IMG/VR virus record: IMGVR_UViG_3300025131_000148
Location: 1 to 38,310 of that record
Strand: one strand, 5' to 3'
DNA length: 38,310 nucleotides
Origin: a virus
Positions 8,315 to 38,310 of the stretch are shown piece after piece; the first letter of the stretch is position 1, and every line of letters starts with the position of its first letter. A program made the translations under genes and the position numbers. The notes under the pieces are model-generated. The model searched no databases. It saw only the letters and a list, made by a program, of their open reading frames with translations, and had not been told where the DNA came from.

Positions 8315-8469
8315 TCTTTATCCTCTAATTTTTTTATTCTCTTACTTATTTTTTTAATCATTCTTATCCTATCATCATAGAAGGTATGCGAAGAAGTTCT
8401 TATAAAAGTTTTAATTAATCTAATAGCTCTCTTTAAGTACTCAATCTCTTCTTCTATCTCACATGACAT
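8311..8469 (-). CDS. Hypothetical 52-aa charged helical protein
   Basis: Begins MSCEIEEEIEYLKRA and continues as a highly charged helix with a basic C-terminus (KKISKRIKKLEDK). GAGG lies about 10 nt upstream. It overlaps the lipoprotein gene before it by 16 nt and the membrane gene after it by 4 nt. No known family; likely coiled coil. Confidence 0.45.
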   Translation of the reverse strand: MSCEIEEEIEYLKRAIRLIKTFIRTSSHTFYDDRIRMIKKISKRIKKLEDKE

Positions 8470-8624
8470 ATAGCTGATGCCTCATTACCTGATGTACCCG
8501 CTTTTATCATTCTCTCTACACAATTTCTAAAATCCTGTATCTTTAATGGTGGTAATGGTACTAAACTACAGCCACTAATTAAGATCAGTATTATGAATAA
8601 GTTGATATTCTTTAATATATTCAT
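8454..8624 (-). CDS. Small lipoprotein, possible o-spanin (Rz1-like)
   Basis: 56 aa with an N-terminal hydrophobic signal and a clear lipobox (LISGC, Cys19), followed by a Pro-rich stretch LVPLPPL. Rz1-type outer-membrane spanins are short Pro-rich lipoproteins whose genes overlap or are embedded in the i-spanin gene. Here the start lies inside the upstream 92-aa gene, which is strongly helical but lacks an obvious membrane anchor. The spanin call is inference; the lipoprotein call is direct. Confidence 0.55.
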   Translation of the reverse strand: MNILKNINLFIILILISGCSLVPLPPLKIQDFRNCVERMIKAGTSGNEASAICHVR

Positions 8625-8853
8625 TTAATTCCTTTAATTTATTATTTAAAACAATAGTTTTATCTAACATCTTTTTACAACTATCCATCATAACTTTATT
8701 AGTAATCTTAGCCCTTTCTAATGGATCAGTTATATTTTCTAATGCTTTGTCTACTTTCTTTTGTAATTGTTTTAATTCTGGGTGCTTTTTTAAATAGGCA
8801 TCTTTTTCTTTTTCTAATCTAGCTATTTTTTCTTTATCTATTTTATTAGCCAT
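8575..8853 (-). CDS. Coiled-coil hypothetical protein
   Basis: 92 aa, almost entirely predicted helix with heptad-like hydrophobic spacing and many Lys/Glu (starts MANKIDKEKIARLEKEKDAY). No transmembrane segment, so it does not match a standard i-spanin even though a lipoprotein gene begins inside its 3' end. It overlaps the gene before it by 8 nt. Confidence 0.5.
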   Translation of the reverse strand: MANKIDKEKIARLEKEKDAYLKKHPELKQLQKKVDKALENITDPLERAKITNKVMMDSCKKMLDKTIVLNNKLKELNEYIKEYQLIHNTDLN

Positions 8854-9112
8854 TATCTTCTACCGGATAAAATTGTGTATCATCTAATAAATCTTTATGC
8901 GTCTGTGACATTATATTAATATTAACTATAAATACAGTCCAATATTTTACAACTTCAGTTAACCACCATAAAGTATGACCCACTAGCCTATACCTAATAC
9001 CCACTTCATCTATATATTCTACATTATCTTTTAGATCATCAAATTTAATATGACTAACTGGTACTGTTATTTTAATACCTGTGGGAGATATATAAGTTTT
9101 AGTATCACTCAT
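8846..9112 (-). CDS. Hypothetical 88-aa protein
   Basis: Small soluble-looking protein (MSDTKTYISPTGIKITVPVS) with a central hydrophobic patch (VVKYWTVFIVNINIM). It overlaps the ClpP-like gene before it by 4 nt. The motif IRYRLVGHTLWWL suggests a small beta domain, but no family is recognised. Confidence 0.45.
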   Translation of the reverse strand: MSDTKTYISPTGIKITVPVSHIKFDDLKDNVEYIDEVGIRYRLVGHTLWWLTEVVKYWTVFIVNINIMSQTHKDLLDDTQFYPVEDNG

Positions 9113-9750
9113 TCAAGTATCTTATCAATTAAATTTAACTTAAGTCCTTCTTCCATATTATAGGTTCTATCATATATTTTAGATTTGTTATACCATTCTT
9201 TATAAGGGATACCTATCTTATTTGCTTCAATTCTAGCTAAATTTAGCATATGAATACTAACTGCATTATAATTACTACCACCACCTCTATGAACAAATAA
9301 TAAACCACCCTTTAAACCAATTCTATTAGTGCAAGTTTGCAATATAGTAAATGCTATACTACCAGCATTAGCAACATAACAATTAATTTCAATACCTTTT
9401 CTTTTGATTGTATTCATAAAATTTATCAATCCTAAACCAGTTTGTATATATCCACCATTAGAATCAATTAAAATATTTATTTTTTTTTCTTTAATTTGAA
9501 ATAAGGATATATTAGAGTCTAATAAATTATAAAAATTATCACCATTAGTGCTTAGAAAATAATCATTAACTGTACTATGCATAGGTGGTAATTTACTAAT
9601 AATTCTATGTTGTATTTTAGGTTCAATTACATTATAGTAAGTTCTTAATATTCCTGTATATAATGTAGAAGTTATATACAAACAAGCAAATAAATTAATA
9701 CCAACCAATAAAGGTAATAAAAATAGTTTATTTATTTTGTCTAAATTCAT
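9109..9750 (-). CDS. Membrane-anchored ClpP-like serine protease
   Basis: I start at MNLDKINK (GGAAGTG upstream); earlier in-frame starts lie inside the previous gene. The 213-aa protein has a transmembrane segment at about residues 9-33, a linker with ISKLPPM (51-57), then a ClpP (S14) fold: oxyanion DSNGG (96-100), nucleophile Ser131 in AGSIAF, His154 in LLFVHRGG, Asp194 in YDRTY, and the family end LIDKIL. The triad is complete, so an active protease is expected, held at the inner membrane. ClpP-like phage proteases often mature capsids, but this gene is far from the head genes. The ISKLPP linker recurs in the membrane partner of the other ClpP-like protease. Confidence 0.8.
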   Translation of the reverse strand: MNLDKINKLFLLPLLVGINLFACLYITSTLYTGILRTYYNVIEPKIQHRIISKLPPMHSTVNDYFLSTNGDNFYNLLDSNISLFQIKEKKINILIDSNGGYIQTGLGLINFMNTIKRKGIEINCYVANAGSIAFTILQTCTNRIGLKGGLLFVHRGGGSNYNAVSIHMLNLARIEANKIGIPYKEWYNKSKIYDRTYNMEEGLKLNLIDKILE

Positions 9751-9949
9751 GACCACACTTCCTAAATAAATCTTCATCTTGTAAAAGAGTTCTTTCTTTA
9801 TATAATACTTTACGCTCTTTATTAATTGTATCATTAACACATTTAATTATTGTATTAGTACATGTTTTTTGTTCTGCTGTTAATTGTTGTGTATTTGGTT
9901 GAATACCGCATGTGAACATTAATACGGTAATCATTGCTGGTGTAAACAT
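9728..9949 (-). CDS. Small exported cysteine-containing protein
   Basis: 73 aa with start chosen at ATG after a strong GGAGGAAAAT site. Residues 1-16 form a short signal-like hydrophobic stretch ending in Cys14 (VLMFTCGIQ), which only loosely fits a lipobox. The rest is charged, with three more Cys. It is the first gene after its own promoter and overlaps the membrane protease gene by 23 nt, so the two are probably co-expressed. Confidence 0.5.
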   Translation of the reverse strand: MFTPAMITVLMFTCGIQPNTQQLTAEQKTCTNTIIKCVNDTINKERKVLYKERTLLQDEDLFRKCGHEFRQNK

Positions 9950-9968
9950 AATTTTCCTCCGATTAGGT

Positions 9969-9997
9969 ATACTAGCACGTTTTGTGCGTTGCGTCAA
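9969..9997 (-). promoter_or_regulatory. Sigma70-like promoter with operator-like motif, internal to minus operon
   Basis: On the minus strand: -35 TTGACG, 17-nt spacer, -10 TAGTAT, then the ribosome binding site of the gene starting at 9949. The -35 and spacer contain GACGCAACGCACAA, one of six related motifs in the window. This gives the protease/lipoprotein segment a separate, probably repressible, start point. Confidence 0.6.
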
Positions 9998-10009
9998 ATA
10001 TTATTTTTA

Positions 10010-10234
10010 TTAAGATGTTGAATCGGTAAATATCTCATTTATTTTAAATTCTTCTATTATCTCTATCTTGTCTATTCTTCTCTGTATCACTAAATTATCT
10101 TCACTCTGTATTAATACATGACTATTAGGTTTATATGTTTTAGGATGTATTAAATGAAAGAACTTTAAAAAATTACCAATCTTCTCTACTTTAGGTTCAT
10201 TAAAATTAATATACTCATAATATTTAATCTTCAT
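10010..10234 (-). CDS. Hypothetical 74-aa protein
   Basis: Starts MKIKYYEYINFNEPK and overlaps the exonuclease gene before it by 11 nt. Mixed alpha/beta composition with no membrane segment or recognisable motif. It is the last gene before the internal promoter at 9969-9997. Confidence 0.45.
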   Translation of the reverse strand: MKIKYYEYINFNEPKVEKIGNFLKFFHLIHPKTYKPNSHVLIQSEDNLVIQRRIDKIEIIEEFKINEIFTDSTS

Positions 10235-10769
10235 TTAGTACAACCCCTAATTTAGTTCTAATAGCTACCACTACATCCATAGCATCTTCAACAGCATTAT
10301 GTGTAACAGTACCATTATTTATATGATTATTTATTTCTGTTAAATTGGGAATATAACCAAACTCTTCAAAATACATACTACCTGGATCAAGTATCCTATG
10401 CTTGAATCTATCAATTTTAAACCCATGCATCTTTAACCAAGGGATATCAAAACCTGCTGCATTCTTACCTGCTACAGTTATCCTTTTATCTGGAGATACT
10501 TCATCTAGGAATGATTTAAATTCAGCAGCAGCTACATGTGGCGGTACTCCTTCTTTATTACATTCAATCATAAGATCAGCATTCATTTGAAGTGCTATAT
10601 AACCACCAAATATAGGTTCTGGATTTCTAATCACAATACGTTTAGTCTTTAAATCTTCTAATGGTGTTACTAGATCATCCCATATCATACCTATTTCAAG
10701 TATGAAACCTTTATCTGGTGTTAGATTAGTAGTTTCAATATCAAGTGATAAATAAGGTTTATATCCCAT
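10224..10769 (-). CDS. DEDDh 3'-5' exonuclease (RNase T/DnaQ-like)
   Basis: 181 aa with all exonuclease motifs: ExoI SLDIETT (Asp10, Glu12), ExoII GKNAAGFDIPWL (Asp108), ExoIII THNAVEDAMD (His157, Asp162). This is the DEDDh superfamily that trims single-stranded 3' ends of DNA or RNA with two metal ions. The length fits a stand-alone exonuclease such as phage DnaQ-like or RNase T-like enzymes. The polymerase here has its own proofreading domain, so this enzyme probably acts in recombination, repair or RNA turnover. Confidence 0.85.
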   Translation of the reverse strand: MGYKPYLSLDIETTNLTPDKGFILEIGMIWDDLVTPLEDLKTKRIVIRNPEPIFGGYIALQMNADLMIECNKEGVPPHVAAAEFKSFLDEVSPDKRITVAGKNAAGFDIPWLKMHGFKIDRFKHRILDPGSMYFEEFGYIPNLTEINNHINNGTVTHNAVEDAMDVVVAIRTKLGVVLNED

Positions 10770-10975
10770 TATCTTCTTCCTTTACCGAATCTTGATCGGT
10801 TGTTGTTTCTTTCTCTGTTTGCTGTATCAAGGCTTTTAATGCTAACACAACTAACGTCCCTTCTAGTATTAGACACATAATCATGACTCCTACAGTATTC
10901 AGCGGCTAAATTACCCACTGACATGGCAAATAATAAACCTTTAATGTGTAATGCTATTAGTACTGTCGTAAACAT
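10769..10975 (-). CDS. Hypothetical small protein with N-terminal hydrophobic segment
   Basis: 68 aa: a moderately hydrophobic first 24 residues, then a polar, Arg-rich tail (NRERNNNRSRFGKGRR). GAGAGAA lies upstream. The start is inside the preceding gene (35-nt overlap). It ends on the exonuclease start (TAATG-type junction). The basic tail could contact nucleic acid. No family recognised. Confidence 0.4.
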   Translation of the reverse strand: MFTTVLIALHIKGLLFAMSVGNLAAEYCRSHDYVSNTRRDVSCVSIKSLDTANRERNNNRSRFGKGRR

Positions 10976-11702
10976 ATATTTCTCTCATGTTTTTGAGTAT
11001 AGGATTATTTAAATTATCTTTCTCACCATTAGTAGTTATATATCTAGTGAATATATCTACCCATGGGATTTTACCATGTGCTATTGATAGCATCATTTCA
11101 CACATACAAGAAAATAAAGCACCATTAAACTGTATAAACTTATTTGGATGTATCATCATCGTTCTTAGTCTTAACCACCATAAACACTTCCCTGATGTTT
11201 TTCTTTGTGTCCCTAAACAAGTAAATAAGGAAGATAATCCCAATACCCAAGATAGGCAGTAACTCCATTTTTTCTCCTTCATAATTGAATAAAATATAAT
11301 CTCAGTATGTCTTAACCATCTATTGTTCAAACCTAAAGCATACCTTAACTTTCTATACCAAGGAGAATTATCTTCTAAAGCTTTAGTATTATTCCAGACT
11401 ACAGTAGGTAAAAACATATAACTTTTATCTTTTAATAGGTAATAAAGAATATATAATCCTGTCATATTATCATGACTAAAATGCACTGAGGGATTATTAT
11501 TATCTATAGGATTAGGGTCAAACCAAATAATATTATCTACCCTATTTACAATATTTCTTATATTTAATTGATCATCAGCAGTTAAATATCCTTTCTTTAT
11601 ATACTCACTTAACCAATATTCAGTAGTAAATAATACACCATTCTCAGTAGGCTTATCTTTTTCTATTAAAACTAAACCTATACTATCAAAATAACAACTC
11701 AT
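10941..11702 (-). CDS. Conserved-looking hypothetical protein
   Basis: 253 aa, aromatic-rich (many Trp and Tyr), with motifs VHFSHDNMTGLYILYYL and NGALFSCMCEM and a hydrophobic middle (YCLSWVLGLSSLFTCLG) that may enter the membrane. The HFSHDN...Y pattern could hint at an enzyme but I do not recognise it. Tight overlaps with neighbours on both sides. Confidence 0.5.
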   Translation of the reverse strand: MSCYFDSIGLVLIEKDKPTENGVLFTTEYWLSEYIKKGYLTADDQLNIRNIVNRVDNIIWFDPNPIDNNNPSVHFSHDNMTGLYILYYLLKDKSYMFLPTVVWNNTKALEDNSPWYRKLRYALGLNNRWLRHTEIIFYSIMKEKKWSYCLSWVLGLSSLFTCLGTQRKTSGKCLWWLRLRTMMIHPNKFIQFNGALFSCMCEMMLSIAHGKIPWVDIFTRYITTNGEKDNLNNPILKNMREIYVYDSTNSITH

Positions 11703-11802
11703 AAACTAATCTCACAATAAAAAGTATCATAAATAAACTTAATAAAAAGTACCATATTTGCCATAATACATCACACCAATCATCATCATCATCTTTAAAC
11801 AT
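11686..11802 (-). CDS. Small single-helix membrane protein (38 aa)
   Basis: MFKDDDDDWCDVL followed by a long hydrophobic helix (about residues 13-37). An upstream in-frame ATG at 11814 would add MDGI; I prefer 11802 because GGATGGGAT lies before it and it overlaps the previous stop. The five consecutive Asp ahead of the helix are unusual. It overlaps the next gene by 17 nt. Confidence 0.4.
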   Translation of the reverse strand: MFKDDDDDWCDVLWQIWYFLLSLFMILFIVRLVYELLF

Positions 11803-11923
11803 TATCCCATCCATAACCATAGTGACATGAATCATCAAATTCATCACCTAATTCATATAGAGCATGTGGTTTATCATGTTCAAACCAATCAAATTCTGTA
11901 TATTCTGTATCTTCTGGCATCAT
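11795..11923 (-). CDS. Hypothetical 42-aa acidic protein
   Basis: Starts in an ATGA overlap with the ClpP-like gene stop, so it is coupled to that gene. Very acidic (MMPEDTEYTEFDWFEHDKPH), ending in an aromatic stretch. A DNA-mimic-like composition, but too short to claim a role. Confidence 0.4.
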   Translation of the reverse strand: MMPEDTEYTEFDWFEHDKPHALYELGDEFDDSCHYGYGWDNV

Positions 11924-12642
11924 TTAACCTTTACTAATTCATCCCAATCATACTTACCATTAGCACCAAAAACTTCATCAGCTAAACCATATTTAACAGT
12001 TTCTTCAGCAGTAAGATATACATCATGTTTATCCTTCATTGTTTCAATAAGCCAATCATATATATGTAATTTAGTTTTACCCTTCCATTTACCAGACTTA
12101 TACATAATATCAGCATATATATTAAGCATTCTTTCTTGATTCTTAGTTTCTTCTTCAACTTCAGTTAATAATCTTCTATAACTATTATCATTAAGAGCTA
12201 AACAAATCATACCTTCATGAAACATAAATCTAGAAGTTGGTACCATCACACGCTTATCAGCAGCTTGAAAAAATATACTCGACATTGATCTAGCATGTGT
12301 CCAATTAACTATTACAACATCATTAGGACATGATTTAATAGCATCATATATAGCCATACCATACATCCAATCACCACCACATGTCATAGAATGAATAACA
12401 ATAGTTTTATCACTTCTTGATTGGAGTATTTGTATATTCTTTATAAAGGTAGTAGTCATTTTATAGTCTACTCCTGGTTCATCTTCACATTCTTCTATAA
12501 CAGTACCAAAATTACCATGCAGATAAATATTATTACCTTTTATATCAATACCTAATTCATGTATTTGTGATACCGGATCATCTGTATTATATTGTAATGT
12601 TTTAGATAAATTATGTGTATAATCTTCTTTTATATCACTCAT
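11920..12642 (-). CDS. ClpP-like serine protease, coupled to a membrane partner
   Basis: 240 aa from MSDIKEDY, whose ATG shares a base with the preceding stop (TAATG). S14 signatures: oxyanion region SMTCGGD (85-91), nucleophile Ser119 in HARSMSS, His142 in RFMFHEGM, Asp207 in KHDVYLTAEE, then KYGLADEVF, matching the ClpP end motif. The triad is intact. There is no membrane segment; the gene just upstream supplies one. ClpP-type peptidases normally assemble as rings and cut unfolded peptides, or act as phage prohead proteases. Distance from head genes and the membrane partner argue for a different role here. Confidence 0.82.
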   Translation of the reverse strand: MSDIKEDYTHNLSKTLQYNTDDPVSQIHELGIDIKGNNIYLHGNFGTVIEECEDEPGVDYKMTTTFIKNIQILQSRSDKTIVIHSMTCGGDWMYGMAIYDAIKSCPNDVVIVNWTHARSMSSIFFQAADKRVMVPTSRFMFHEGMICLALNDNSYRRLLTEVEEETKNQERMLNIYADIMYKSGKWKGKTKLHIYDWLIETMKDKHDVYLTAEETVKYGLADEVFGANGKYDWDELVKVK

Positions 12643-12938
12643 TATAATTGCCCTAAATAATACCAACTATTACTTTCTGATTTTTCAATAAAATTATTAG
12701 GTAGTGGTGGTAATTTTGATATAACTATTTCTTCAAAATATTTCGACCAATATACAAATTGTGGTTCACGTGGTTTATATTCTATAACTTCTTTAGACTT
12801 ACTATTTAATATATTCTCTATCTTCTTCATTTGATATCTTCTAAACATCTTCCTAATGAAACCAATACCAAATAAAATAGAACCTACTACACTAACAGCT
12901 ATAATAACTACAATTAAAGCAAACAATTGAAACTCCAT
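12642..12938 (-). CDS. Membrane partner of the ClpP-like protease
   Basis: 98 aa from MEFQLFALI, preceded by GGGGTGG. A transmembrane helix covers residues about 4-28, then a basic stretch (RKMFRRYQMKK), then ISKLPPL (73-79) near the C-terminus. The same ISKLPP motif follows the transmembrane segment of the fused protease at 9109-9750, so this gene looks like the detached anchor/linker of that architecture. The stop overlaps the protease start, so the two are made together. Confidence 0.65.
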   Translation of the reverse strand: MEFQLFALIVVIIAVSVVGSILFGIGFIRKMFRRYQMKKIENILNSKSKEVIEYKPREPQFVYWSKYFEEIVISKLPPLPNNFIEKSESNSWYYLGQL

Positions 12939-12939
12939 A

Positions 12940-13794
12940 CTACCACCCCAAGGAAAATGAATTAACATCATTAATCAAATCCTTCACATTAACATCAACA
13001 TAAATATCCATAGTGATATTAACGGATGAATGTCCTAATATTTTACTTAAGTGAACTATATTACCACCGTTCTTAATGTAGTGGGTAGCAAATGTATGTC
13101 TGAAGTCATGAAACCTAATGGGTTCTAAACCTAGTTCTTTACAGTCTCTTCTCAAGTAATGATTAGTAAAATTATTAACATCTATATCCCATATCAAATC
13201 ATGACTACCAGGGATCAAGATAGACTCGATAATCTTCATGCATTCCTTAGTAATAGGTACTTTACGCATTTTCGATGACTTAGTACTACCTATATTATCA
13301 CCTGATTTCGTACCTCTAACCAGTATGTAAAACTCGCTCTTAGACACGTCTATATGCCTCATAGAAGCGATTTCTCCTAAACGCATACCAGTGTATAGGG
13401 CAACTAGATAGAAGGGCTTAAAATGGACGTGAGACCCCTTAAAACGCATAATTTGATGCAGGTCTAAAGGTCTAATTTCTCTTTTATCTCCTTTAATGAA
13501 TTTTAAACTAGTTAGAGGGTTATCTTCTAGATACTTTAATTCTACTGCTTTATTGATTAATATCTTAAAACAGTTTAGAATCTTATTAATTGTAGAAAAG
13601 CCTAAATCCCTGGCTTTAAGATTCATCCTGAAGTCTACCCCATCCTTGTAAGTTAAACTGGTGAGAAGTTTTGTACCAAGCAAGGGGTTAATGTGGTTGA
13701 AGCATATAGAGCTATAGCTTCTGATGGTCGAGGATTTGCATTCTAATGCAACTATATTATCTAACCAAAATTGAGTAAATTGATTAATCTTCAT
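12940..13794 (-). CDS. int: Tyrosine recombinase / phage integrase
   Basis: 284 aa. Residues 1-100 are a SAM-like core-binding domain (Phage_int_SAM type); 105-284 are the catalytic domain with Arg138 (YTGMRLGE), a Lys near 173-179, HDFRH (His229, Arg232), GHSS (His255) and Tyr265 (MDIYVDV). All catalytic residues are present. No extra arm-binding domain is obvious, so it is a compact integrase. It overlaps the PhaR-like gene by 4 nt. This makes the phage probably temperate. The best attP candidate by position is the non-coding block 14052-14178. Confidence 0.9.
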   Translation of the reverse strand: MKINQFTQFWLDNIVALECKSSTIRSYSSICFNHINPLLGTKLLTSLTYKDGVDFRMNLKARDLGFSTINKILNCFKILINKAVELKYLEDNPLTSLKFIKGDKREIRPLDLHQIMRFKGSHVHFKPFYLVALYTGMRLGEIASMRHIDVSKSEFYILVRGTKSGDNIGSTKSSKMRKVPITKECMKIIESILIPGSHDLIWDIDVNNFTNHYLRRDCKELGLEPIRFHDFRHTFATHYIKNGGNIVHLSKILGHSSVNITMDIYVDVNVKDLINDVNSFSLGW

Positions 13795-14178: not shown

Positions 14179-16440
14179 TTAAATTATTTCTTCTAATAAT
14201 TCTTTATTGTTCTTAAGAGTATAGTCTGGAATAATTCCAATGTCAAGAATATTCTCAAATATCTTTAAAGATTTATAAAGTCTTGACACATAATGCATTG
14301 GATCATGATCACCAGTATAATTCTCTTCTAATGTAAGAGTACCTTCATTATTTCTGTATAAATATACTTTATCTTCTAAATTAATAATCTTATCTTTACA
14401 AGCATTCCTAACATCTAAAGCTATCTTATCTTGATTCTCTAATACAGCCTTAGTAATAGTCTTTTTAACACACCAAGGAGTAATAGGTTCTTCTTTAGTA
14501 CCTATCTTGAATACTCTCCTAAGATACTTATGGTATAAATGAAACACTTGATCTTGTTTCTTCTTTAAGAATAATCCTAGTATTTCCTTCTTAAACTCCA
14601 TGCATATCTTCTCTACTTTTTGATCTTTAATAGATGACCCTTTAAATACAAACTTCTTACCATCTTCAGTATATGCATAGTTCTTAGTCTTTAAAACTAT
14701 TTCTCTTTTAATCCTACCCATATCCTTAGTATCAAATTCCCAATTGATTAAAGGACCAAAATCTTCATGTACTGCTTCTTGTATTTCATCTAATAGTTCT
14801 TGACACTCTTCATCAGTAAACTTCTTACCATTAGGTTTACAAAAACTAGTACTATCAGTATCAGCATTTACAATATTAAAGTAATCCTTTTTCTCTGAAG
14901 CATCTACAGTATATCTATATTGTACTGTTTGTTCACTATCTAAATAGAATTCACCACCAGTAAATATATCAGTAGCATGATTTAATATATCTCTACCATG
15001 TTCTGTTACTTTAGATGCATGATACATACTATTAAAATGTAATCCTGGTGCACCTAAGAAACCATAGAAGCTATTAATAACAATCTTCTGTGCTGATTGT
15101 AATGCATCATAGTAAGGATCATCAGTTTCTTTAAATATTTTCTTATTCTTTAATCTTTCATCAGTAAATATATTAATGAAGATCAACATTTGTTTTAATG
15201 GGTCTTTTTCAGGACTATATATCTCAAAATGTCTCATAATAGATGGGTAAAGACTAGCAACATCTATCTTAAATACATTATCGTATATTCCAGGTTTACC
15301 ATAAGAAAATGCACCTTGAAAATTCTCTTTATCATCCGGTGCTGGTATAGAATGACCTTGTGATAAATACGTTCTAATCATTAAATTGTTTATCTGTGAA
15401 CCTGATGCAGATACTAGTACTTCACCAAATGTCTTAGGTATTGATCTAGTAAGGTAGAAGTAAGCAGGGCACATAAGATCAAATAAAGCTAATGCATCAT
15501 CGCCATCATCAGTACAGTACTTCTTAATCTTCTCACGTTCTTCAGGTATATGCCAATTCTGACCAATCAATGCAGCATCATAGAATATTCTACCTTTCTT
15601 AACTAAACCTTCAACTTCTATGATATGTTTCAATCTAAAGTTTTCATACTTCTTAGGTACTGCGTCATAGTCCATAGCTAAAAACCATGTATCTACTAAC
15701 TCTCTACCAAATATCTTTAGTTTTGGATATGCTATAGACCTTGAACCATCAAATCTTTTTTGTGAAGGTCTTTTAGGTTCTATAATAGCCGAACCATCTC
15801 TACCTAAACGAATACTAGCTTTATACTTAGTTTTCATTACATGGATCATATAAGGTAAATCATAAGTATAAATATTATGTCCACACATAAATGTTGGGTT
15901 CATATCTCTTACCCAAGCACTCCAGCAATCAATCATATCTTCTGAATTTTTAAATTCATCTAAACTAAATCTTTTCTTAGTTATTTTACCATTCTTTCTA
16001 AGAGTATTAGCTATACAGAATACTTCTGAATCATCATCAAATCTTAAACTAGCAGCTTCTATATCAAAACCTAGTACAGATACATCTTTAGGAGCTAACC
16101 CTTTAAACATGGTGAATCCATCTCTAAGTATAGCCATTTCTTTTAAATTATAAGGATACCAATACTGATCACGCTTTTTAAATATTTGTTTAGTTTTCTC
16201 TTTAAATTCTTCATGTGAATCAGTTTTCCAAACATGATCAAAGAATAGATCACCTTTTAACTTATCCATGTTGGAATGACCTATAGCTGATAGTATCCAG
16301 TAGTCCATAGGATACTCTTCAATTTCTACTTTACCATTTATTTCTTTAAAGAGTATTACATTATCATCTTTAACTTCTACTGATACTATGTGTTCAGTAG
16401 AATCATGACCATAAAGTAATTCTTCATTAGTTAACTTCAA
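14179..16440 (-). CDS. Family B DNA polymerase with proofreading exonuclease
   Basis: 753 aa. Exonuclease motifs: ExoI FDIEA (Asp126, Glu128), ExoII GHNIYTYDLPYM (Asp194), ExoIII YCTDDGDDAL (Tyr308, Asp312). Polymerase motifs: A DVASLYPSI (Asp393), B KIVINSFYGFLG (Lys452-Gly460), C NADTDST (Asp527, Asp529). All catalytic residues are present. No TPR insertions typical of protein-primed enzymes are evident, so RNA-primed synthesis with the primase and helicase upstream is likely. The start is TTG with a strong GGAGGGAG site; no in-frame ATG lies nearby. A tRNA-like fold sits just upstream. Confidence 0.95.
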   Translation of the reverse strand: MKLTNEELLYGHDSTEHIVSVEVKDDNVILFKEINGKVEIEEYPMDYWILSAIGHSNMDKLKGDLFFDHVWKTDSHEEFKEKTKQIFKKRDQYWYPYNLKEMAILRDGFTMFKGLAPKDVSVLGFDIEAASLRFDDDSEVFCIANTLRKNGKITKKRFSLDEFKNSEDMIDCWSAWVRDMNPTFMCGHNIYTYDLPYMIHVMKTKYKASIRLGRDGSAIIEPKRPSQKRFDGSRSIAYPKLKIFGRELVDTWFLAMDYDAVPKKYENFRLKHIIEVEGLVKKGRIFYDAALIGQNWHIPEEREKIKKYCTDDGDDALALFDLMCPAYFYLTRSIPKTFGEVLVSASGSQINNLMIRTYLSQGHSIPAPDDKENFQGAFSYGKPGIYDNVFKIDVASLYPSIMRHFEIYSPEKDPLKQMLIFINIFTDERLKNKKIFKETDDPYYDALQSAQKIVINSFYGFLGAPGLHFNSMYHASKVTEHGRDILNHATDIFTGGEFYLDSEQTVQYRYTVDASEKKDYFNIVNADTDSTSFCKPNGKKFTDEECQELLDEIQEAVHEDFGPLINWEFDTKDMGRIKREIVLKTKNYAYTEDGKKFVFKGSSIKDQKVEKICMEFKKEILGLFLKKKQDQVFHLYHKYLRRVFKIGTKEEPITPWCVKKTITKAVLENQDKIALDVRNACKDKIINLEDKVYLYRNNEGTLTLEENYTGDHDPMHYVSRLYKSLKIFENILDIGIIPDYTLKNNKELLEEII

Positions 16441-32012: not shown

Positions 32013-32192
32013 ATGACTGCTAAAACTAAATTAGAAGAATATCACGTAGATTCAACTATAAGAACACTTTATGATAGAAAAGAAAAAGTATATCTAGCTT
32101 ATGTAGAAGATGATTATGGTCAAATGGTAGCAGCTTCTCATGGTAAAACCCCAAGAGCAGCAGTTAAACAATTAATCAAAGATTGGTTTTAA
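32013..32192 (+). CDS. Hypothetical 59-aa protein
   Basis: MTAKTKLEEYHVDSTIRTL..., a small alpha/beta protein ending KQLIKDWF. The TAA overlaps the TerL start. The block from VYLAYVEDDYGQMV to HGKTPRAAVKQLI looks like a beta hairpin followed by a helix. Conserved-looking but unknown. Confidence 0.5.
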   Translation: MTAKTKLEEYHVDSTIRTLYDRKEKVYLAYVEDDYGQMVAASHGKTPRAAVKQLIKDWF

Positions 32193-33424
32193 TGGAAGAA
32201 ACAGTAAATCTATATCCACATCAACACGCTTTTTTATGTTCTGATGCATATGTTACAGCATTAATAGGTGGTATTGGTTCTGGTAAAACATGGAGTGGTG
32301 CGCATTTTGTTATTCAACGTATTCAAGAAAATCCTGAGACTATGGGTTTTATAGGAGCTAATACTGTTACTCAATTACAAGATGCAACACTTAAAACTCT
32401 CTTTGACGAATTTGAAAGATTCGGTATTAAATATAGTTATAATAGATTATCAGGAATGATAGAGTTACCACAATTCTCTTATAGAGTAGGTGATGCTATA
32501 AGACCTGCTAAAATTAAAGCAGCTTCACTTGAAAACTTTAACGCATTGCGTGGTCCTGAATATGGATGGGCATGGTTGGATGAAACTAGAGATACAAAAG
32601 AAGAAGCTTTTGATGTTATCCTTGGTAGACTTAGATGTAAAAGATCAAAGAAGATATTAGTTAAGATATCAACATCACCATCAGGTTATAATTGGCTTTA
32701 TGATAGATTACTTGGTAAGAATAAACTAGACGATGTTGTTGTTATTCATGCTGGTACTAGAGATAATCTTTCTTTACCTAAAAATTATATTAAGTCTCTT
32801 GAAAAAAACTATGATGCTAAATTTGCTCAACAGGAATTAGATGGTAAATTTATTAATTTAACTGCTGGTAAGGTCTATCATGCATTTGATCGAGAAATTC
32901 ATGTTCAAGAGAAAAAACTATATAATTTAAAACCTAAAGCTGGTGTTGATTTTAATATTGAGAAAATGAGTGGTATAGTAGCTGAGATTCAAGGTAGACA
33001 TGTTCATGTTTATCGAGAATATACTGATTTAGAAAATAGTTATGCTTTAGCTGCTCATATGGATAAAGATTTACATGGTAATTGTGATATAGTACCAGAT
33101 TCAACAGGTAAGGCACGGAAAACTAGTAGTAAGAAAACGGATCATCAAATACTTAAAGATAGAGGGTTTGATATTGTAAGGTGTCGTAATCCTTTTATTG
33201 AAGATCGGTGGAATACTGTAAATAGGCTATTACAGGAGGGGTATTTGACATTTAGTCCTGATTGTGTAAATCTCATAGAAGAATTAGAACGTGCTGATTT
33301 AGAACACGCAAGTAAATCTGAAGGAAAATATTACCATATAACTGTTGCATTAGGATATTTATGTTACAAATATTTTCCATTACGTGTTCGATCAGATAGA
33401 AAATCAAGTGTAAGGATTTGGTAA
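32192..33424 (+). CDS. terL: Terminase large subunit
   Basis: 410 aa from ATG in the TAATG overlap. ATPase: Walker A GGIGSGKT (26-33), Walker B WAWLDE (Asp130, catalytic Glu131), coupling motif STSPSG (160-165). RNase H-like nuclease: GVDFN (Asp253), DIVPDSTG (Asp303) and a C-terminal acidic/His block (ELERADLEH...YHITVALGY). All elements of an active packaging motor and headful/site nuclease are present. Sits before the portal gene as expected. Confidence 0.95.
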   Translation: MEETVNLYPHQHAFLCSDAYVTALIGGIGSGKTWSGAHFVIQRIQENPETMGFIGANTVTQLQDATLKTLFDEFERFGIKYSYNRLSGMIELPQFSYRVGDAIRPAKIKAASLENFNALRGPEYGWAWLDETRDTKEEAFDVILGRLRCKRSKKILVKISTSPSGYNWLYDRLLGKNKLDDVVVIHAGTRDNLSLPKNYIKSLEKNYDAKFAQQELDGKFINLTAGKVYHAFDREIHVQEKKLYNLKPKAGVDFNIEKMSGIVAEIQGRHVHVYREYTDLENSYALAAHMDKDLHGNCDIVPDSTGKARKTSSKKTDHQILKDRGFDIVRCRNPFIEDRWNTVNRLLQEGYLTFSPDCVNLIEELERADLEHASKSEGKYYHITVALGYLCYKYFPLRVRSDRKSSVRIW

Positions 33425-34968
33425 TGCCTAGTTTAGCAGATACAGAATTTTTAAAAAGAATTAAAGCACATATTGAAAAAAACACACCAAGAATTTTAGA
33501 TGATCAGGTTATTTTTTCTGTATTAGAAGAAAATATAAGACCACACGTAGTCAATAAATTAAAAAAGGAAATTATAAGTGAAAGGGCTTTAAGGATTTCA
33601 TGTGAACGTATTCCTCCTATTAATATTTTTAAGCTTGTAAACAAGCGTCTTAGTAAAATCTATTCAGATGCACCTATTCGGAAAACTGAAAAGAAATCCG
33701 ATCAAGAAATGATACGTTTATATGAATCTAAAGCTCATTTTAATTCTAGAATGGCGGCTTCTAATTCAATGACTAATGCACAGAAAAGATCAGCATTAGA
33801 ACCTTATTTAGATAAAGGTAAAGTTAAAATAAGAGTTATACCAGCTAATCAATTTTTAGTTTATAGTGAAGATAAAATTAATGAACTTAATTTACAAGTT
33901 TTTATTAAATTTGTTGGTTCTATTAAAAAAACAGAAAATATTGATAGAGGTAAAACTATAGAAACAACAGTAGGTTTATTTCATTTATATACAGATACAG
34001 AATTTTTAATTATGGATGGTAGTGGTACACCTAGATTTGATTTGATGAAAAATAAACAAGGTAAATCATTAAAGTTAAAAAATGGTGTTGGTATTAATCC
34101 TTTTGGAAGAATACCTTTTACTTATGTTAACACTTCTGAATATAAGTTATTACCAGTAGCTAATATTGATGATGTTGAATTATCACTTTTGATTTTAGTT
34201 CTTCTTACAGATTTAAATTATGCTACTAAGTATCAAGCTCATTCTATGATCTATATGATAAATGTAGATACTAGAAAAATAGATATGAATCCTGATGCAA
34301 TACTCGATCTTAAATCAGATGGTTTAGATGGTGAAAAGTCAGAAGTAGGTACTGTTAATCCAGAAATTGATATTAAAGGTACTTTAGAATTATTAGCTTC
34401 TACTCTTAAATTATATTTAGAATCTAAAGGTTTACAAGTTGATGTTAATTCTTCTATTAAATCTAATAAGGCTACTTCTGGTGTACATGAAGTTATTAAA
34501 AATGCTATGTTAGTTGAAGAAAGAAAAGATCAGATTGAATTATTTAAGGAAGTAGAAGAAGATTTATGGGAAATAATAGCATTAAGACATAATGCTTTAC
34601 GAAATAATGGTAAGTTAAAAGGTGATTTTAAAGAAGGTAGTTTTAGTAAAGATTTTGAAATGTCTATTCATTTTGCTGAACAAAAACCTGTAGTATCCAG
34701 AAGAGATAAAGGTTTAATGCTTCAAACTGAAGTAGATGCAGGTCTTACTTCTCTTGAATCAGCTATTAGAGAATTACATCCAGAAAAAGATGATGATGAA
34801 ATTAAAAGAGAAATAGAACTTATTAAAAAAGAAAAAAAAGAACAACAAACATTAGAAACACAAATTAAATTTAATGATAATAATAAAAAACTTCAAGAAG
34901 ATAAAAGGAATAAGGTAGGAAGTAATGCCAATTCAACATCACAAAACGAGAATCCGAATAGACGATAG
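33424..34968 (+). CDS. Portal protein
   Basis: 514 aa from ATG in the TAATG overlap with TerL. Size, position and architecture fit the SPP1 gp6-like portals: helical start (DTEFLKRIKAHIEKN), VNKRLSKIYSDAPIR, beta wing (VKIRVIPANQFLVYSED), NPFGRIPFTYVNT and a long C-terminal helix region with coiled coil (DDDEIKREIELIKKEKK). It forms the dodecameric DNA channel at one head vertex. Confidence 0.88.
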   Translation: MPSLADTEFLKRIKAHIEKNTPRILDDQVIFSVLEENIRPHVVNKLKKEIISERALRISCERIPPINIFKLVNKRLSKIYSDAPIRKTEKKSDQEMIRLYESKAHFNSRMAASNSMTNAQKRSALEPYLDKGKVKIRVIPANQFLVYSEDKINELNLQVFIKFVGSIKKTENIDRGKTIETTVGLFHLYTDTEFLIMDGSGTPRFDLMKNKQGKSLKLKNGVGINPFGRIPFTYVNTSEYKLLPVANIDDVELSLLILVLLTDLNYATKYQAHSMIYMINVDTRKIDMNPDAILDLKSDGLDGEKSEVGTVNPEIDIKGTLELLASTLKLYLESKGLQVDVNSSIKSNKATSGVHEVIKNAMLVEERKDQIELFKEVEEDLWEIIALRHNALRNNGKLKGDFKEGSFSKDFEMSIHFAEQKPVVSRRDKGLMLQTEVDAGLTSLESAIRELHPEKDDDEIKREIELIKKEKKEQQTLETQIKFNDNNKKLQEDKRNKVGSNANSTSQNENPNRR

Positions 34969-35506
34969 ATATGATGCTATACAGCGTTCATCTATTGCAT
35001 CTGAATTAATTTCAGTTATTAGGATTCGTACTGATAAAGGTCAAGGTGTATCTGGTAATCCTGGTTCACAAGGCACATTTGAAGGCACTAAAAGTTTTCC
35101 TGGTTATTCAAAAGATTATATAGAATCTAAGGAATTCAAATTAGCAGGTAAAAGTTCAGCTAAAGTTAATTTAAAATTGAGTAGTTCTATGATGAATAGT
35201 CTTAAACTTTTAAATCATGGTCCTGGTTTTATTGATATTGGTTATGAATCTGGTAGTAAAGAAAATGCTAAAGCTGAAGGTAATATAATTGGTAGTTATG
35301 GAAGAAATGCTAATGCTTCTAAAGCTAGAAATTTTCTTGGTATAACAGGTAGTGAATTACAAGCAGTTTTGGTTAATTTTCCATTACCTAGAGATAATAG
35401 ATTACAAGCATTAGCAGCTTTAGGTGTAATTGGTTTATTAACAGAAGATAGTGAAGATAAAGAGTTTTTTCTAGATTTAGATATTAATAATTTAAGAGAA
35501 AGTTAA
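34925..35506 (+). CDS. Head-tail connection or virion accessory protein
   Basis: 193 aa, overlapping the portal end by 44 nt, with AAGG before the ATG. Motifs TKSFPGYSKDYIESKEFKLA, KVNLKLSSSMM and GNIIGSYGRN recur in small virion proteins encoded after portals in aquatic phages. The next gene has related short stretches (RKGKGV, NLTRSGQL), so the two may form a neck pair. Probable neck or minor head protein. Confidence 0.55.
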   Translation: MPIQHHKTRIRIDDRYDAIQRSSIASELISVIRIRTDKGQGVSGNPGSQGTFEGTKSFPGYSKDYIESKEFKLAGKSSAKVNLKLSSSMMNSLKLLNHGPGFIDIGYESGSKENAKAEGNIIGSYGRNANASKARNFLGITGSELQAVLVNFPLPRDNRLQALAALGVIGLLTEDSEDKEFFLDLDINNLRES

Positions 35507-36028
35507 ATGGAAGCAGAACAACAACTCAAATTAATAATAGATAGTATTAAACAATCTGTTGATAATTCTTTATCTACTACAAATATGAAAAAATTAGCAG
35601 TAGATGCAGCTCAAAATGTTAAAACTAGAACTAGAAAGGGTAAAGGTGTTAATAGTTTGGGTGGTAGTGAAAAACAATTACCTTCATTAGCTGAAAATAC
35701 AGTTAAAAGACGTGAAAGTCTTAAAAGAAGGAGTAAATTAAACTTTAATACTACCCCTAAAAAGTCTAATTTAACTCGAAGTGGTCAATTAACATCTGAT
35801 ATTATGGGTACTTCTACACATAAAGCCAATGGTCAAGTATTTATTGATTCTGGTAGAAGAAATCAATTTTCAGGTAAAAGTAGTAGTGAAGTAGCAAAAG
35901 AAGTAGAAGATATAGGTTTTAAGTTCTTTAATTTTAGTAAACGAGAAGTCTTAAGTATTGTAAAAGATTATGGTTTGATATTATCAAAAGAAATTGTTAG
36001 AATCTTAAATAGGATAAAATCTCAGTGA
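35507..36028 (+). CDS. Neck / minor head protein, HK97 gp10-like
   Basis: 173 aa. N-terminal helix (EQQLKLIIDSIKQSVDNSL), then DAAQNVKTRTRKGKGVNS, KRRSKLNFN and NLTRSGQLTSDIM, a layout similar to HK97 gp10-type tail completion proteins (K-R-T...G-x-L-x-x-S). It starts directly after the previous stop. It likely helps join head to tail. Confidence 0.55.
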   Translation: MEAEQQLKLIIDSIKQSVDNSLSTTNMKKLAVDAAQNVKTRTRKGKGVNSLGGSEKQLPSLAENTVKRRESLKRRSKLNFNTTPKKSNLTRSGQLTSDIMGTSTHKANGQVFIDSGRRNQFSGKSSSEVAKEVEDIGFKFFNFSKREVLSIVKDYGLILSKEIVRILNRIKSQ

Positions 36029-36043
36029 GATTAGGAGAAAAAC

Positions 36044-36679
36044 ATGGAAGATAACAAAGAAAATGCCAGTGGCAAAAATTCAGATGCCAGTGGCAATGAA
36101 GAAAAAGAGAAAGAGAATAACTCTGTAGCTTATGATACTTATTCTAGAACACTTTCTGAAGCTAAAAAAGAAAAAAGTAAAAGAAGGGAATTAGAACAAG
36201 AATTAAATGCTATGAAGGCTAGAGAAGAAGCTGAAAAAAAAGCTAAACTTGAAGAAGAAGGTAAGCATAAAGAACTTAATGCTGAACTTCGAAAAGAAGT
36301 AGATACTGAAAAAGAGAAAAATATTAATATGCAAAATCGTATTAATAATAGTTTCAAAATTCAAGCTTTTAAAGATGCTTTACCTAATAAACTAGGAAAT
36401 GAAGATTTTCTTTCTTTTGTGAAACTTGATAAAATTGAGATAGATGAATCAAATATTGTAAATGCGGAGTCTGTAAAAGTTGAAGTAGATAGATTTATGA
36501 GTCAATATCCTCAATTAATTCAAAATGATGGCGATGAATTGCCTGGTGATGGTCCTAAAGATTTAAGTAGTGATTTAATTACTGAAGAACAATGGAAGGC
36601 ATTACCATTAAAAGAACAAAGAGCACGTATGCAAGAATTCAGAAAAGCTGAAGCAATACGTGATAAACAAAAATCTTAG
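36044..36679 (+). CDS. Scaffolding protein
   Basis: 211 aa, immediately before the capsid gene. Extremely charged coiled coil (residues about 35-105: AKKEKSKRRELEQEL and similar), an acidic linker and a small basic helical C-terminus (EEQWKALPLKEQRARMQEFR), which is how scaffolds bind coat protein. No protease motif is fused. Two near-identical DASG/NASG turns at the N-terminus derive from a repeated TGCCAGTGGCA. Confidence 0.82.
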   Translation: MEDNKENASGKNSDASGNEEKEKENNSVAYDTYSRTLSEAKKEKSKRRELEQELNAMKAREEAEKKAKLEEEGKHKELNAELRKEVDTEKEKNINMQNRINNSFKIQAFKDALPNKLGNEDFLSFVKLDKIEIDESNIVNAESVKVEVDRFMSQYPQLIQNDGDELPGDGPKDLSSDLITEEQWKALPLKEQRARMQEFRKAEAIRDKQKS

Positions 36680-36693
36680 TGAGGTAACAAAAA

Positions 36694-37572
36694 ATGGACA
36701 GTCCAAGTGATGTTGCAAACCAAGTAAAAAAGTTCTGGTCTGATATTTTTGAAAAAGAATTAAGAGAAGATACTCTTTTACCGGGTCTTGTATCAAGAGA
36801 TTACGAAGGTGAAATTAAACAAAAAGGTGATACAGTATATGTAACACAAGTAAATGCTGCTAGTGGTGAAATTAGAGATATCGGTACTGATTCTGATTCT
36901 TTTACACCAGAAGCACTTAGTGTACAACGTATTTCAATTACTGTTAATAAAAGAATAGTAGCGTCTTATGAATTTGAAGATTTAATGGATATTCAAACAC
37001 AATTAGATAAAGAAAATCCAGAAATTCTAGCATCTCTTAAGTTTGCTGTAGAGAAGCAATTAAATGATTATTTGTATACATTAGTAGCTCCTTCTAGTTC
37101 TGCACCTGATCATACTACAGCTAGTGTTACTGATTTTAATCTAGCTCAACTTTCTGCACAAAGAATTTTAGCAGCACAAGCTAAGTGGAATAAACTTAAG
37201 CCTTGGTATTGTTTGCTAGACCCTGTTTATTATGGTGATGTTCTTACTGATACCACATTATCTAATGCTGATTTTGGTGGTACTGATGCTCCAATAATTG
37301 CAGGTCAAGTTTCTTTACGCAGGATGGGTTTTAATATTCTTGAAGATAATTCAGATGGTATTTTAACTATTTCAAGTGCTGATAGTGCAGATTGTGCTTT
37401 ATTGTTTCATCCTGACTTCATGCACCTTGTAATGGGTGAACCAAGATTTAAAATATCTGATCTTCATTCTAATAAACAATTTGGTTTTGTACTTTCTGTT
37501 GATATGTTAATTGGCGCAGCACTCGGTAACGATGGCGCTAAAAAACATATTACTGTACAAAATAACGCTTAA
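36694..37572 (+). CDS. Major capsid protein
   Basis: 292 aa. N-arm (DVANQVKKFWSDIFEKEL), E-loop with YEGEIKQKGDTVYVTQV, spine helix (YEFEDLMDIQTQLDKENPEI), P-domain and A-domain (FNILEDNSDGILTIS, FGFVLSVDMLIGAALG). It resembles HK97-fold coat proteins of the P22-coat/phi29-like groups without a protease-cleaved leader. Strong gene position after scaffold. Forms the icosahedral shell. Confidence 0.85.
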   Translation: MDSPSDVANQVKKFWSDIFEKELREDTLLPGLVSRDYEGEIKQKGDTVYVTQVNAASGEIRDIGTDSDSFTPEALSVQRISITVNKRIVASYEFEDLMDIQTQLDKENPEILASLKFAVEKQLNDYLYTLVAPSSSAPDHTTASVTDFNLAQLSAQRILAAQAKWNKLKPWYCLLDPVYYGDVLTDTTLSNADFGGTDAPIIAGQVSLRRMGFNILEDNSDGILTISSADSADCALLFHPDFMHLVMGEPRFKISDLHSNKQFGFVLSVDMLIGAALGNDGAKKHITVQNNA

Positions 37573-37587
37573 TAAAGGAGGTATAAA

Positions 37588-38004
37588 ATGTCATTAAGTG
37601 ATAAAAGGACACTTTCTGCTCCTGGTTATAATGCGGAAGAATTAGTTGTAATAGAATATGATTTTGCTGAAGATGGTGGTGCTACTGGTGATTACGATAT
37701 CATAGAGAATGGAGGTACAGATAATATGCTAATTGAATTAGATCATATTCATGCTGAAACAGCAGTTACATCTGCTGGTGATCCTACATTAGATATTGGT
37801 AAAGGTGATGGTGGTACTGAAATTGCTTCAGATATTCTTAAAGCAGAATTAGCAGCAGATTCAATAGTATTACCAGATACAGCAGGTACTAAAATAGTTC
37901 TAGCAAATGGAGAAAAATGTGTTTTAGGAATTGAGGTAGCAGCAATAACTGCTGGTAAATTCCACATGACTTTCAAAATACAAAGAGCTAAATTTGATAC
38001 TTAA
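37588..38004 (+). CDS. Probable capsid decoration or head-fibre protein
   Basis: 138 aa behind an excellent AAAGGAGG site. Beta-rich (ELVVIEYDFAEDGGATGDY, MLIELDHIHAETAV, FHMTFKIQRAKFD), Gly/Asp-rich loops. The fold suggests a jellyroll or immunoglobulin-like decoration protein that caps capsomers. Position after the capsid gene supports this. Family not recognised by sequence. Confidence 0.6.
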   Translation: MSLSDKRTLSAPGYNAEELVVIEYDFAEDGGATGDYDIIENGGTDNMLIELDHIHAETAVTSAGDPTLDIGKGDGGTEIASDILKAELAADSIVLPDTAGTKIVLANGEKCVLGIEVAAITAGKFHMTFKIQRAKFDT

Positions 38005-38018
38005 ACTTAAAATGCCCT

Positions 38019-38052
38019 TGGTGGAGGGTTTAAAAATATCCACCACCCTTTT
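38019..38052 (+). promoter_or_regulatory. Hairpin before the last virion gene
   Basis: TGGTGG (38019-38024) pairs with CCACCA (38040-38045), leaving AGGG in the loop, followed by CCC and TTTT next to the next ATG. The only Shine-Dalgarno-like GGAGGG lies in the stem and loop, about 24 nt upstream. It may be a weak terminator or may limit translation of the next gene. Confidence 0.4.
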
Positions 38053-38310
38053 ATGGATACAAGAATAATATTTTCAGATAATTCAACACTAGAAGATATC
38101 ACAATTAATGCTAATGATTATCATAGTGGTAGTGATGATATTGCTTTTGTTGCCGCTGATGATAAATTATTTATAGGGTCATATTTACCTTTTAATCATC
38201 TCTATATTAAAATGGGTTCTAATGTAAACGCTAATGCTAGTGTTATGACTATTAAATATTGGGATGGTTCTAATTTTAGAGAAGTAGCAGAATTGATAGA
38301 TGAAACAAAA
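38053..38310 (+). CDS. Virion protein, N-terminal part (3' end outside window)
   Basis: Open frame to the window end (86 codons): MDTRIIFSDNSTLEDITIN..., then SYLPFNHLYIKMGS and MTIKYWDGSNFREVAEL. The last block is typical of beta-sandwich structural proteins in the head-tail region. No close Shine-Dalgarno; see the hairpin before it. Probably a neck or head-tail protein. Confidence 0.55.
   Translation, partial: MDTRIIFSDNSTLEDITINANDYHSGSDDIAFVAADDKLFIGSYLPFNHLYIKMGSNVNANASVMTIKYWDGSNFREVAELIDETK

Follow-up and report, generated by a model that had tools for sequence, protein, structure and literature searches.

Phage homologues of ClpP are usually called 'head maturation protease' on the strength of profile matches. 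In this study, we have analysed a virus record of 38,310 bases (IMG/VR record IMGVR_UViG_3300025131_000148, 29% GC, without a completeness mark; this whole stretch is called the window hereafter), which carries two minus-strand genes for proteases of the ClpP family, one membrane-anchored (A) and one of soluble type (B), and, overlapping the start of B, a gene for a small membrane protein (C). The features on which the argument turns are the following.

9109-9750, minus strand: A, ClpP-fold (S14) serine protease of 213 amino acids (PF00574, triad, AlphaFold2/Foldseek)
9580-9600, minus strand: ISKLPPM of A, residues 51-57, in the juxtamembrane linker
11920-12642, minus strand: B, soluble-type ClpP homologue (S14) of 240 amino acids (PF00574, triad, Foldseek)
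12642-12938, minus strand: C, single-helix membrane protein of 98 amino acids (hydropathy 3.03, flank charges -1/+5)
12702-12722, minus strand: ISKLPPL of C, residues 73-79 (shared-motif alignment)

Both proteases score above the Pfam cut-off for PF00574 (20.2 bits), B with 69.1 bits and A with 24.1 bits, and in alignments with solved ClpPs both keep the catalytic residues, S131/H154/D194 in A and S119/H142/D207 in B, each triad in a conserved context. The AlphaFold2 models, built on 15-17 aligned sequences and of moderate confidence (mean predicted local distance difference test, pLDDT, of 77 for A and 74 for B), match solved ClpPs in Foldseek searches (E ~6e-9 for A and 2.3e-10 for B), the top 50 matches being ClpP in each case. 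The first-pass annotation, made from the letters alone, had recognised two ClpP-family proteases with these coordinates, lengths and triads and had proposed structure prediction as a check; the profile, alignment and structure results bear the assignment out. With ClpP (S14, PF00574), A and B have in common the fold, the Ser-His-Asp site and a glycine-rich GG motif, and each differs from it in its own way. A, whose ATG stands 7 nucleotides after AGGAAG, carries an N-terminal membrane helix (residues ~9-35; maximum Kyte-Doolittle hydropathy over 19 residues, 2.22), and its handle region is shortened, the alignment and the model agreeing that ~10 residues after the active-site His, which form the ClpP handle strand, are gone. 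Judged by its sequence, A apparently has no handle segment, the part of ClpP that lies at the ring-ring interface. B has no membrane helix (maximum at most 1.13), a long handle helix in the model, a long N-terminal extension and an insert after the active-site His, with a His-Asp spacing 16 residues longer than in E. coli ClpP. No pairwise BLASTP similarity was found between A and B. We also considered A as a lipoprotein through its LFAC string; by eye, an Asn four residues before the Cys breaks the standard lipobox pattern.

When viral contigs were scanned with A, B and C singly, no true relative emerged, and a match obtained with B (L003) proved to be a chance one inside an unrelated scaffold-like protein. 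Relatives were found by aligning the family B DNA polymerase of the window with two Salinibacter phage polymerases and then scanning viral contigs. This gave 14 loci (L012-L025), 11 of which show 34-47% identity in the best segment. In six of these 11 closest relatives there is a ClpP above the Pfam cut-off, always within the polymerase region and in the same orientation, and in the other five, some of which are fragments, none was detected. Two of the six (L012, L021) encode soluble ClpPs and four (L013, L016, L017, L020) encode ClpPs of 260-291 amino acids, in which an N-terminal hydrophobic segment or helix is followed by the ClpP domain. In these four the anchored ClpP gene lies just downstream of the polymerase and is preceded by a gene for a small membrane protein; it is followed, as also in L040, where an anchored ClpP has the same downstream gene order, by a coiled-coil membrane protein with an N-terminal helix and then by a signal-like protein with a C-terminal hydrophobic stretch and a PYTG/PFTG..LLP string. 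A further anchored ClpP, in L041 (a 157-kb contig), stands between ribonucleotide reductase and polymerase III genes, these neighbours being named from their translations. Because anchored ClpPs recur in this way in related phages, the anchor on a ClpP is not a fluke: membrane-anchored ClpP in phages is a real and recurrent oddity, of which we found no description in the open-access literature searched.

In a tree of 26 rows, the anchored phage ClpPs group in a clade of their own (95/99), apart from the head-maturation ClpPs, the curated members of which form another clade (99/95) that excludes both A and B. The earlier idea of a membrane-anchored phage ClpP is thus upheld by the polymerase-related phages and by their clade. 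B pairs with the soluble ClpP of L021 (89/81), its closest relative (30% identity, E 3e-20), and A and the ClpP of L012 are long branches with no settled place. The Ser and His are invariant in all aligned ClpP members. Like A, the anchored relatives (L013, L016, L017, L020, L040, L041) join an N-terminal membrane helix to a ClpP domain with this invariant pair, and they sit in a polymerase or nucleotide-metabolism region; unlike A, they keep the full handle and have Glu or Asn as third triad residue, where A and B have Asp.

Several observations on these relatives stand beside this comparison. The anchored ClpP cassette occupies, for example, positions 17227-18888 of L016, and the small membrane protein that precedes it elsewhere was not seen in L040. 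A conserved gene for an AAA+ ATPase (L013:13674-14648 and equivalents; PF00004, 50 bits) lies between the polymerase and the anchored ClpP; it is present in L013, L016, L017, L020 and L040 and was not seen in the window, and its product would be a possible unfoldase partner if the ClpP were cytoplasmic. In L013 and L016, which have the strongest charge bias among the anchored relatives, 6-7 basic residues stand before the helix and one after it, and because basic residues concentrate before the helix the ClpP domain should lie outside. In L012, a small open reading frame for a membrane helix is followed by one that resembles the C-terminal end of ClpP only (L012:39-473; hidden Markov model search, E 0.024), possibly what is left of a second, anchored ClpP after deletion of its core. 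Finally, a bacterial (Opitutae) ClpP-like protein whose N-terminus is hydrophobic and which contains a long coiled coil (L042:5497-6693) falls in the anchored phage clade.

In the window, the ClpP genes belong to a compact minus-strand operon in the order polymerase, integrase, C, B, small genes, exonuclease and A, and the head genes lie elsewhere on the other strand.

14179-16440, minus strand: family B DNA polymerase, at the start of the replication/ClpP region (PF00136, 68.3 bits)
12940-13794, minus strand: tyrosine integrase, next upstream of C (PF00589, 87.5 bits)
10224-10769, minus strand: DnaQ-like exonuclease, between the two ClpP genes (phrog_192, 40.8 bits)
32183-37572, plus strand: head module with terminase, portal, two small genes, a scaffold-like protein of 211 amino acids and a P22-type coat (profile matches)

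This arrangement bears on the explanation that the name of the family would suggest, in which A, B or both are head-maturation proteases displaced from the head genes. The top PHROG matches are indeed named 'head maturation protease', B scores 57.7 bits against the NCBIfam model Clp_rel_HeadMat and branches weakly near the head proteases (outer node, 61/88), and neither an S78 nor an S49 protease was found in the window record that could otherwise serve, nor in those records of the relatives that have a ClpP. Against this, in four out of four curated examples (Pika, 2638A, phi2, Harrison) the head ClpP gene stands between portal and coat, whereas in the window A and B are ~20 kb or more away from both of those genes, with no protease gene in the interval between portal and coat. 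The coat itself appears to be of a kind without a removable N-terminal scaffolding domain, because its profile match starts as early as residue 6, and the coat gene has a separate scaffold-like gene before it. A membrane anchor such as that of A would be out of place on a head protease, and in the L012 record, which has the same coat family as the window, the ClpP is also distant from the coat gene. A displaced head protease, although compatible with the profile scores alone, is therefore difficult to square with gene order and coat type, and we hold it to be very unlikely. The evidence supports a place for A and B outside the capsid module and a non-capsid role, in line with the first-pass judgement that prohead maturation was improbable so far from the head genes.

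The arrangement of C and B raises a different question. As had been noticed from the sequence, the helix of A is followed by ISKLPPM, and B, which has no helix, is preceded by an overlapping gene for a helix plus ISKLPPL; hydropathy and sequence agree with each of these points. From them it had been proposed that one anchor module was split or fused once, so that C would be the split-off anchor of B, and that A and B could form a hetero-complex on one face of the membrane. ISKLPP does stand at a similar place after the helix in A and C, and when the comparison is confined to the juxtamembrane residues 37-75 of A, the A-C local score is equalled in 12 of 5000 shuffles; the stop of C and the start of B overlap (TAATG), and hetero-ClpP rings exist (solved ClpP1/ClpP2 entries). 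In the wider test, with the C tail against all of A after its helix, the score is equalled in 91 of 5000 shuffles, and the hexapeptide is the sole clearly shared part of the two proteins. The idea of a single anchor module fails because there is no clear A-C similarity beyond it. ISKLPP is also absent from the related records scanned, and the proposed co-occurrence of an anchor gene with a ClpP gene in other phages is not seen beside the ClpPs of L021 and L012, the relatives of B, where there is no C-like gene. The overlap of C and B is uninformative because it follows the rule of the operon, in which 15 of 17 junctions overlap. Nor do the predicted topologies suit C as the same anchor split off: no basic residue stands before the helix of C and five stand after it, and because of this strongly basic stretch the C tail is predicted to be cytoplasmic, whereas the ClpP domains of L013 and L016 are predicted outside. 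For a hetero-complex, the missing BLASTP similarity between A and B, their different places in the tree and the handle segment that A seems to be without are all unfavourable. The split-anchor account does not hold, and a tethered pair of this kind seems to us quite unlikely.

Other possible meanings of C and its motif were considered. Profile searches gave no family match for C, and only DUF4083 appeared, below its cut-off. The ISKLPPM of A has no predicted structure, as it falls within residues 43-63, where the pLDDT is below 50. As a conserved docking or processing motif ISKLPP was rejected, the relatives L013, L016 and L017 offering only loosely similar SMLPD/SLLPE strings. Fusion of C to B by frameshifting was set aside too, no classical slippery heptamer being seen by eye near the overlap. 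The small membrane gene upstream of ClpP in Mycobacterium phage Pound was examined as a parallel to C; that arrangement is not conserved, because its relative Superphikiman carries an RNA ligase at the position. A 53-amino-acid protein with a strong C-terminal membrane helix is encoded just downstream of B (11686-11847), so that small membrane genes flank B on both sides. At 8454-8853, a predicted lipoprotein gene (LISGC lipobox, 56 amino acids) has a 50-base overlap with the upstream coiled-coil gene. At its opposite ends (1-94 and 38004-38310) the record breaks off within tape-measure-like and head/tail genes and so looks like a permuted, nearly complete circle minus a tail segment. Models of defence systems found no match.

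Compared with known systems, soluble phage ClpPs outside the capsid module are already common in databases, and it is the anchored form that is the new variant. In mycobacteriophages Pound, Henry and Bongo, in Escherichia phage 121Q (gp464) and in Vibrio phage Va1, ClpP lies among DNA-metabolism or other non-head genes, as here, and Pound gp150 has matches in ~300 records of mycobacteriophages and Arthrobacter phages. The soluble non-capsid ClpPs examined have no N-terminal membrane helix and show low identity to A and B. Head-maturation ClpPs share the S14 domain with A and B, and differ in their portal-coat location and separate clade. SppA/SohB (S49) and NfeD1b/YqeZ, like A, have a ClpP-like domain held at the membrane. 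These cellular proteases work with a Ser-Lys dyad; the window record gave no match to PF01343 (S49), and A and B have Ser-His-Asp instead. Within the cellular membrane ClpP-class proteases NfeD1b/YqeZ, NfeD1b has its ClpP domain at the N-terminus (PMC2636767). In one paper a phage clpP is listed as an auxiliary gene, yet with a prohead role cited for it (PMC5964084).

Based on these results, we propose, with a probability of roughly 55%, that A and B are independently acquired, probably active non-capsid proteases of ClpP type, B being cytoplasmic and A membrane-anchored and free of an ATPase. The folds, the triads, the helix, the non-capsid gene context and the recurrence in relatives are observed, and from this anatomy we infer activity, assembly, membrane side and substrates. 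The two would be made together with the replication genes. B would be soluble and cytoplasmic, a ClpP homologue that accompanies the family B polymerase region in this group of phages, and because profile searches recognised no AAA+ unfoldase, and hence no partner of the kind ClpP has, among the proteins of this contig, it most likely uses the ClpX/ClpA of the host or degrades loosely folded proteins and peptides unaided. A would act as a single-pass membrane-anchored protease without an ATPase, in the manner of SppA/SohB and with the Ser-His-Asp site of ClpP, and may trim or remove membrane or exported proteins of the host during infection; the substrate class suggested in the first-pass annotation, envelope, defence or superinfection proteins, would be a guess. 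C, as a small membrane protein, might tether B to the inner face, or might not.

Some of our data weigh against this proposal. The charges flanking the helix of A are ambiguous, and its membrane side cannot be read from them. Since A falls outside the anchored clade, its anchor may have arisen separately, and the genes downstream of A do not match the two-gene membrane cassette of the anchored relatives. B fits the head-maturation and the cellular ClpP profiles equally (57.7 and 57.5 bits). Moreover, an unfoldase gene could be missing from the window, the record being unmarked for completeness.

Two further explanations concern function. In one, B would be an accessory subunit which, by entering the ClpP ring of the host or by imitating it, diverts or blocks host ClpXP; A would then be a separate matter. 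Among the best structural and sequence matches of B is Pseudomonas ClpP2, a partner of ClpP1 in mixed rings, and the lack of a recognised phage unfoldase would suit such a role; the longer His-Asp spacing and the long N-terminal extension may hinder mixing, and we consider this unlikely. Decay, with A and B as cargo or degenerating genes without selected function, could be read from the strong divergence of A (24 bits), from the apparent C-terminal remnant in the L012 record, which indicates that loss does occur, and from the five of 11 close relatives, some fragmentary, without a detected ClpP. However, the triads, the helix and the ribosome sites of the two genes are intact, and Ser and His do not vary among the relatives, which makes decay the most improbable of the explanations weighed here. 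A more ambitious extension of the preferred reading, that of non-capsid proteases with A at the membrane, would be a module of envelope proteolysis in tailed phages, in which an anchored ClpP works outside the cytoplasm, independently of ATP, next to the polymerase and with small membrane partners, accompanied in the window by a cytoplasmic ClpP that is perhaps tethered. We put this forward tentatively, as possible and still doubtful.

In conclusion, gene context and phylogeny here define a group of ClpPs, membrane-anchored forms included, that are not easily read as head proteases. If active, the anchored ClpPs would be proteases directed against the host envelope, and they offer a testable set for envelope remodelling or the exclusion of other phages. 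Since related phages have similar membrane-anchored ClpPs, our findings suggest that these proteins are a little-noticed tool with which phages cut host proteins at the cell envelope.

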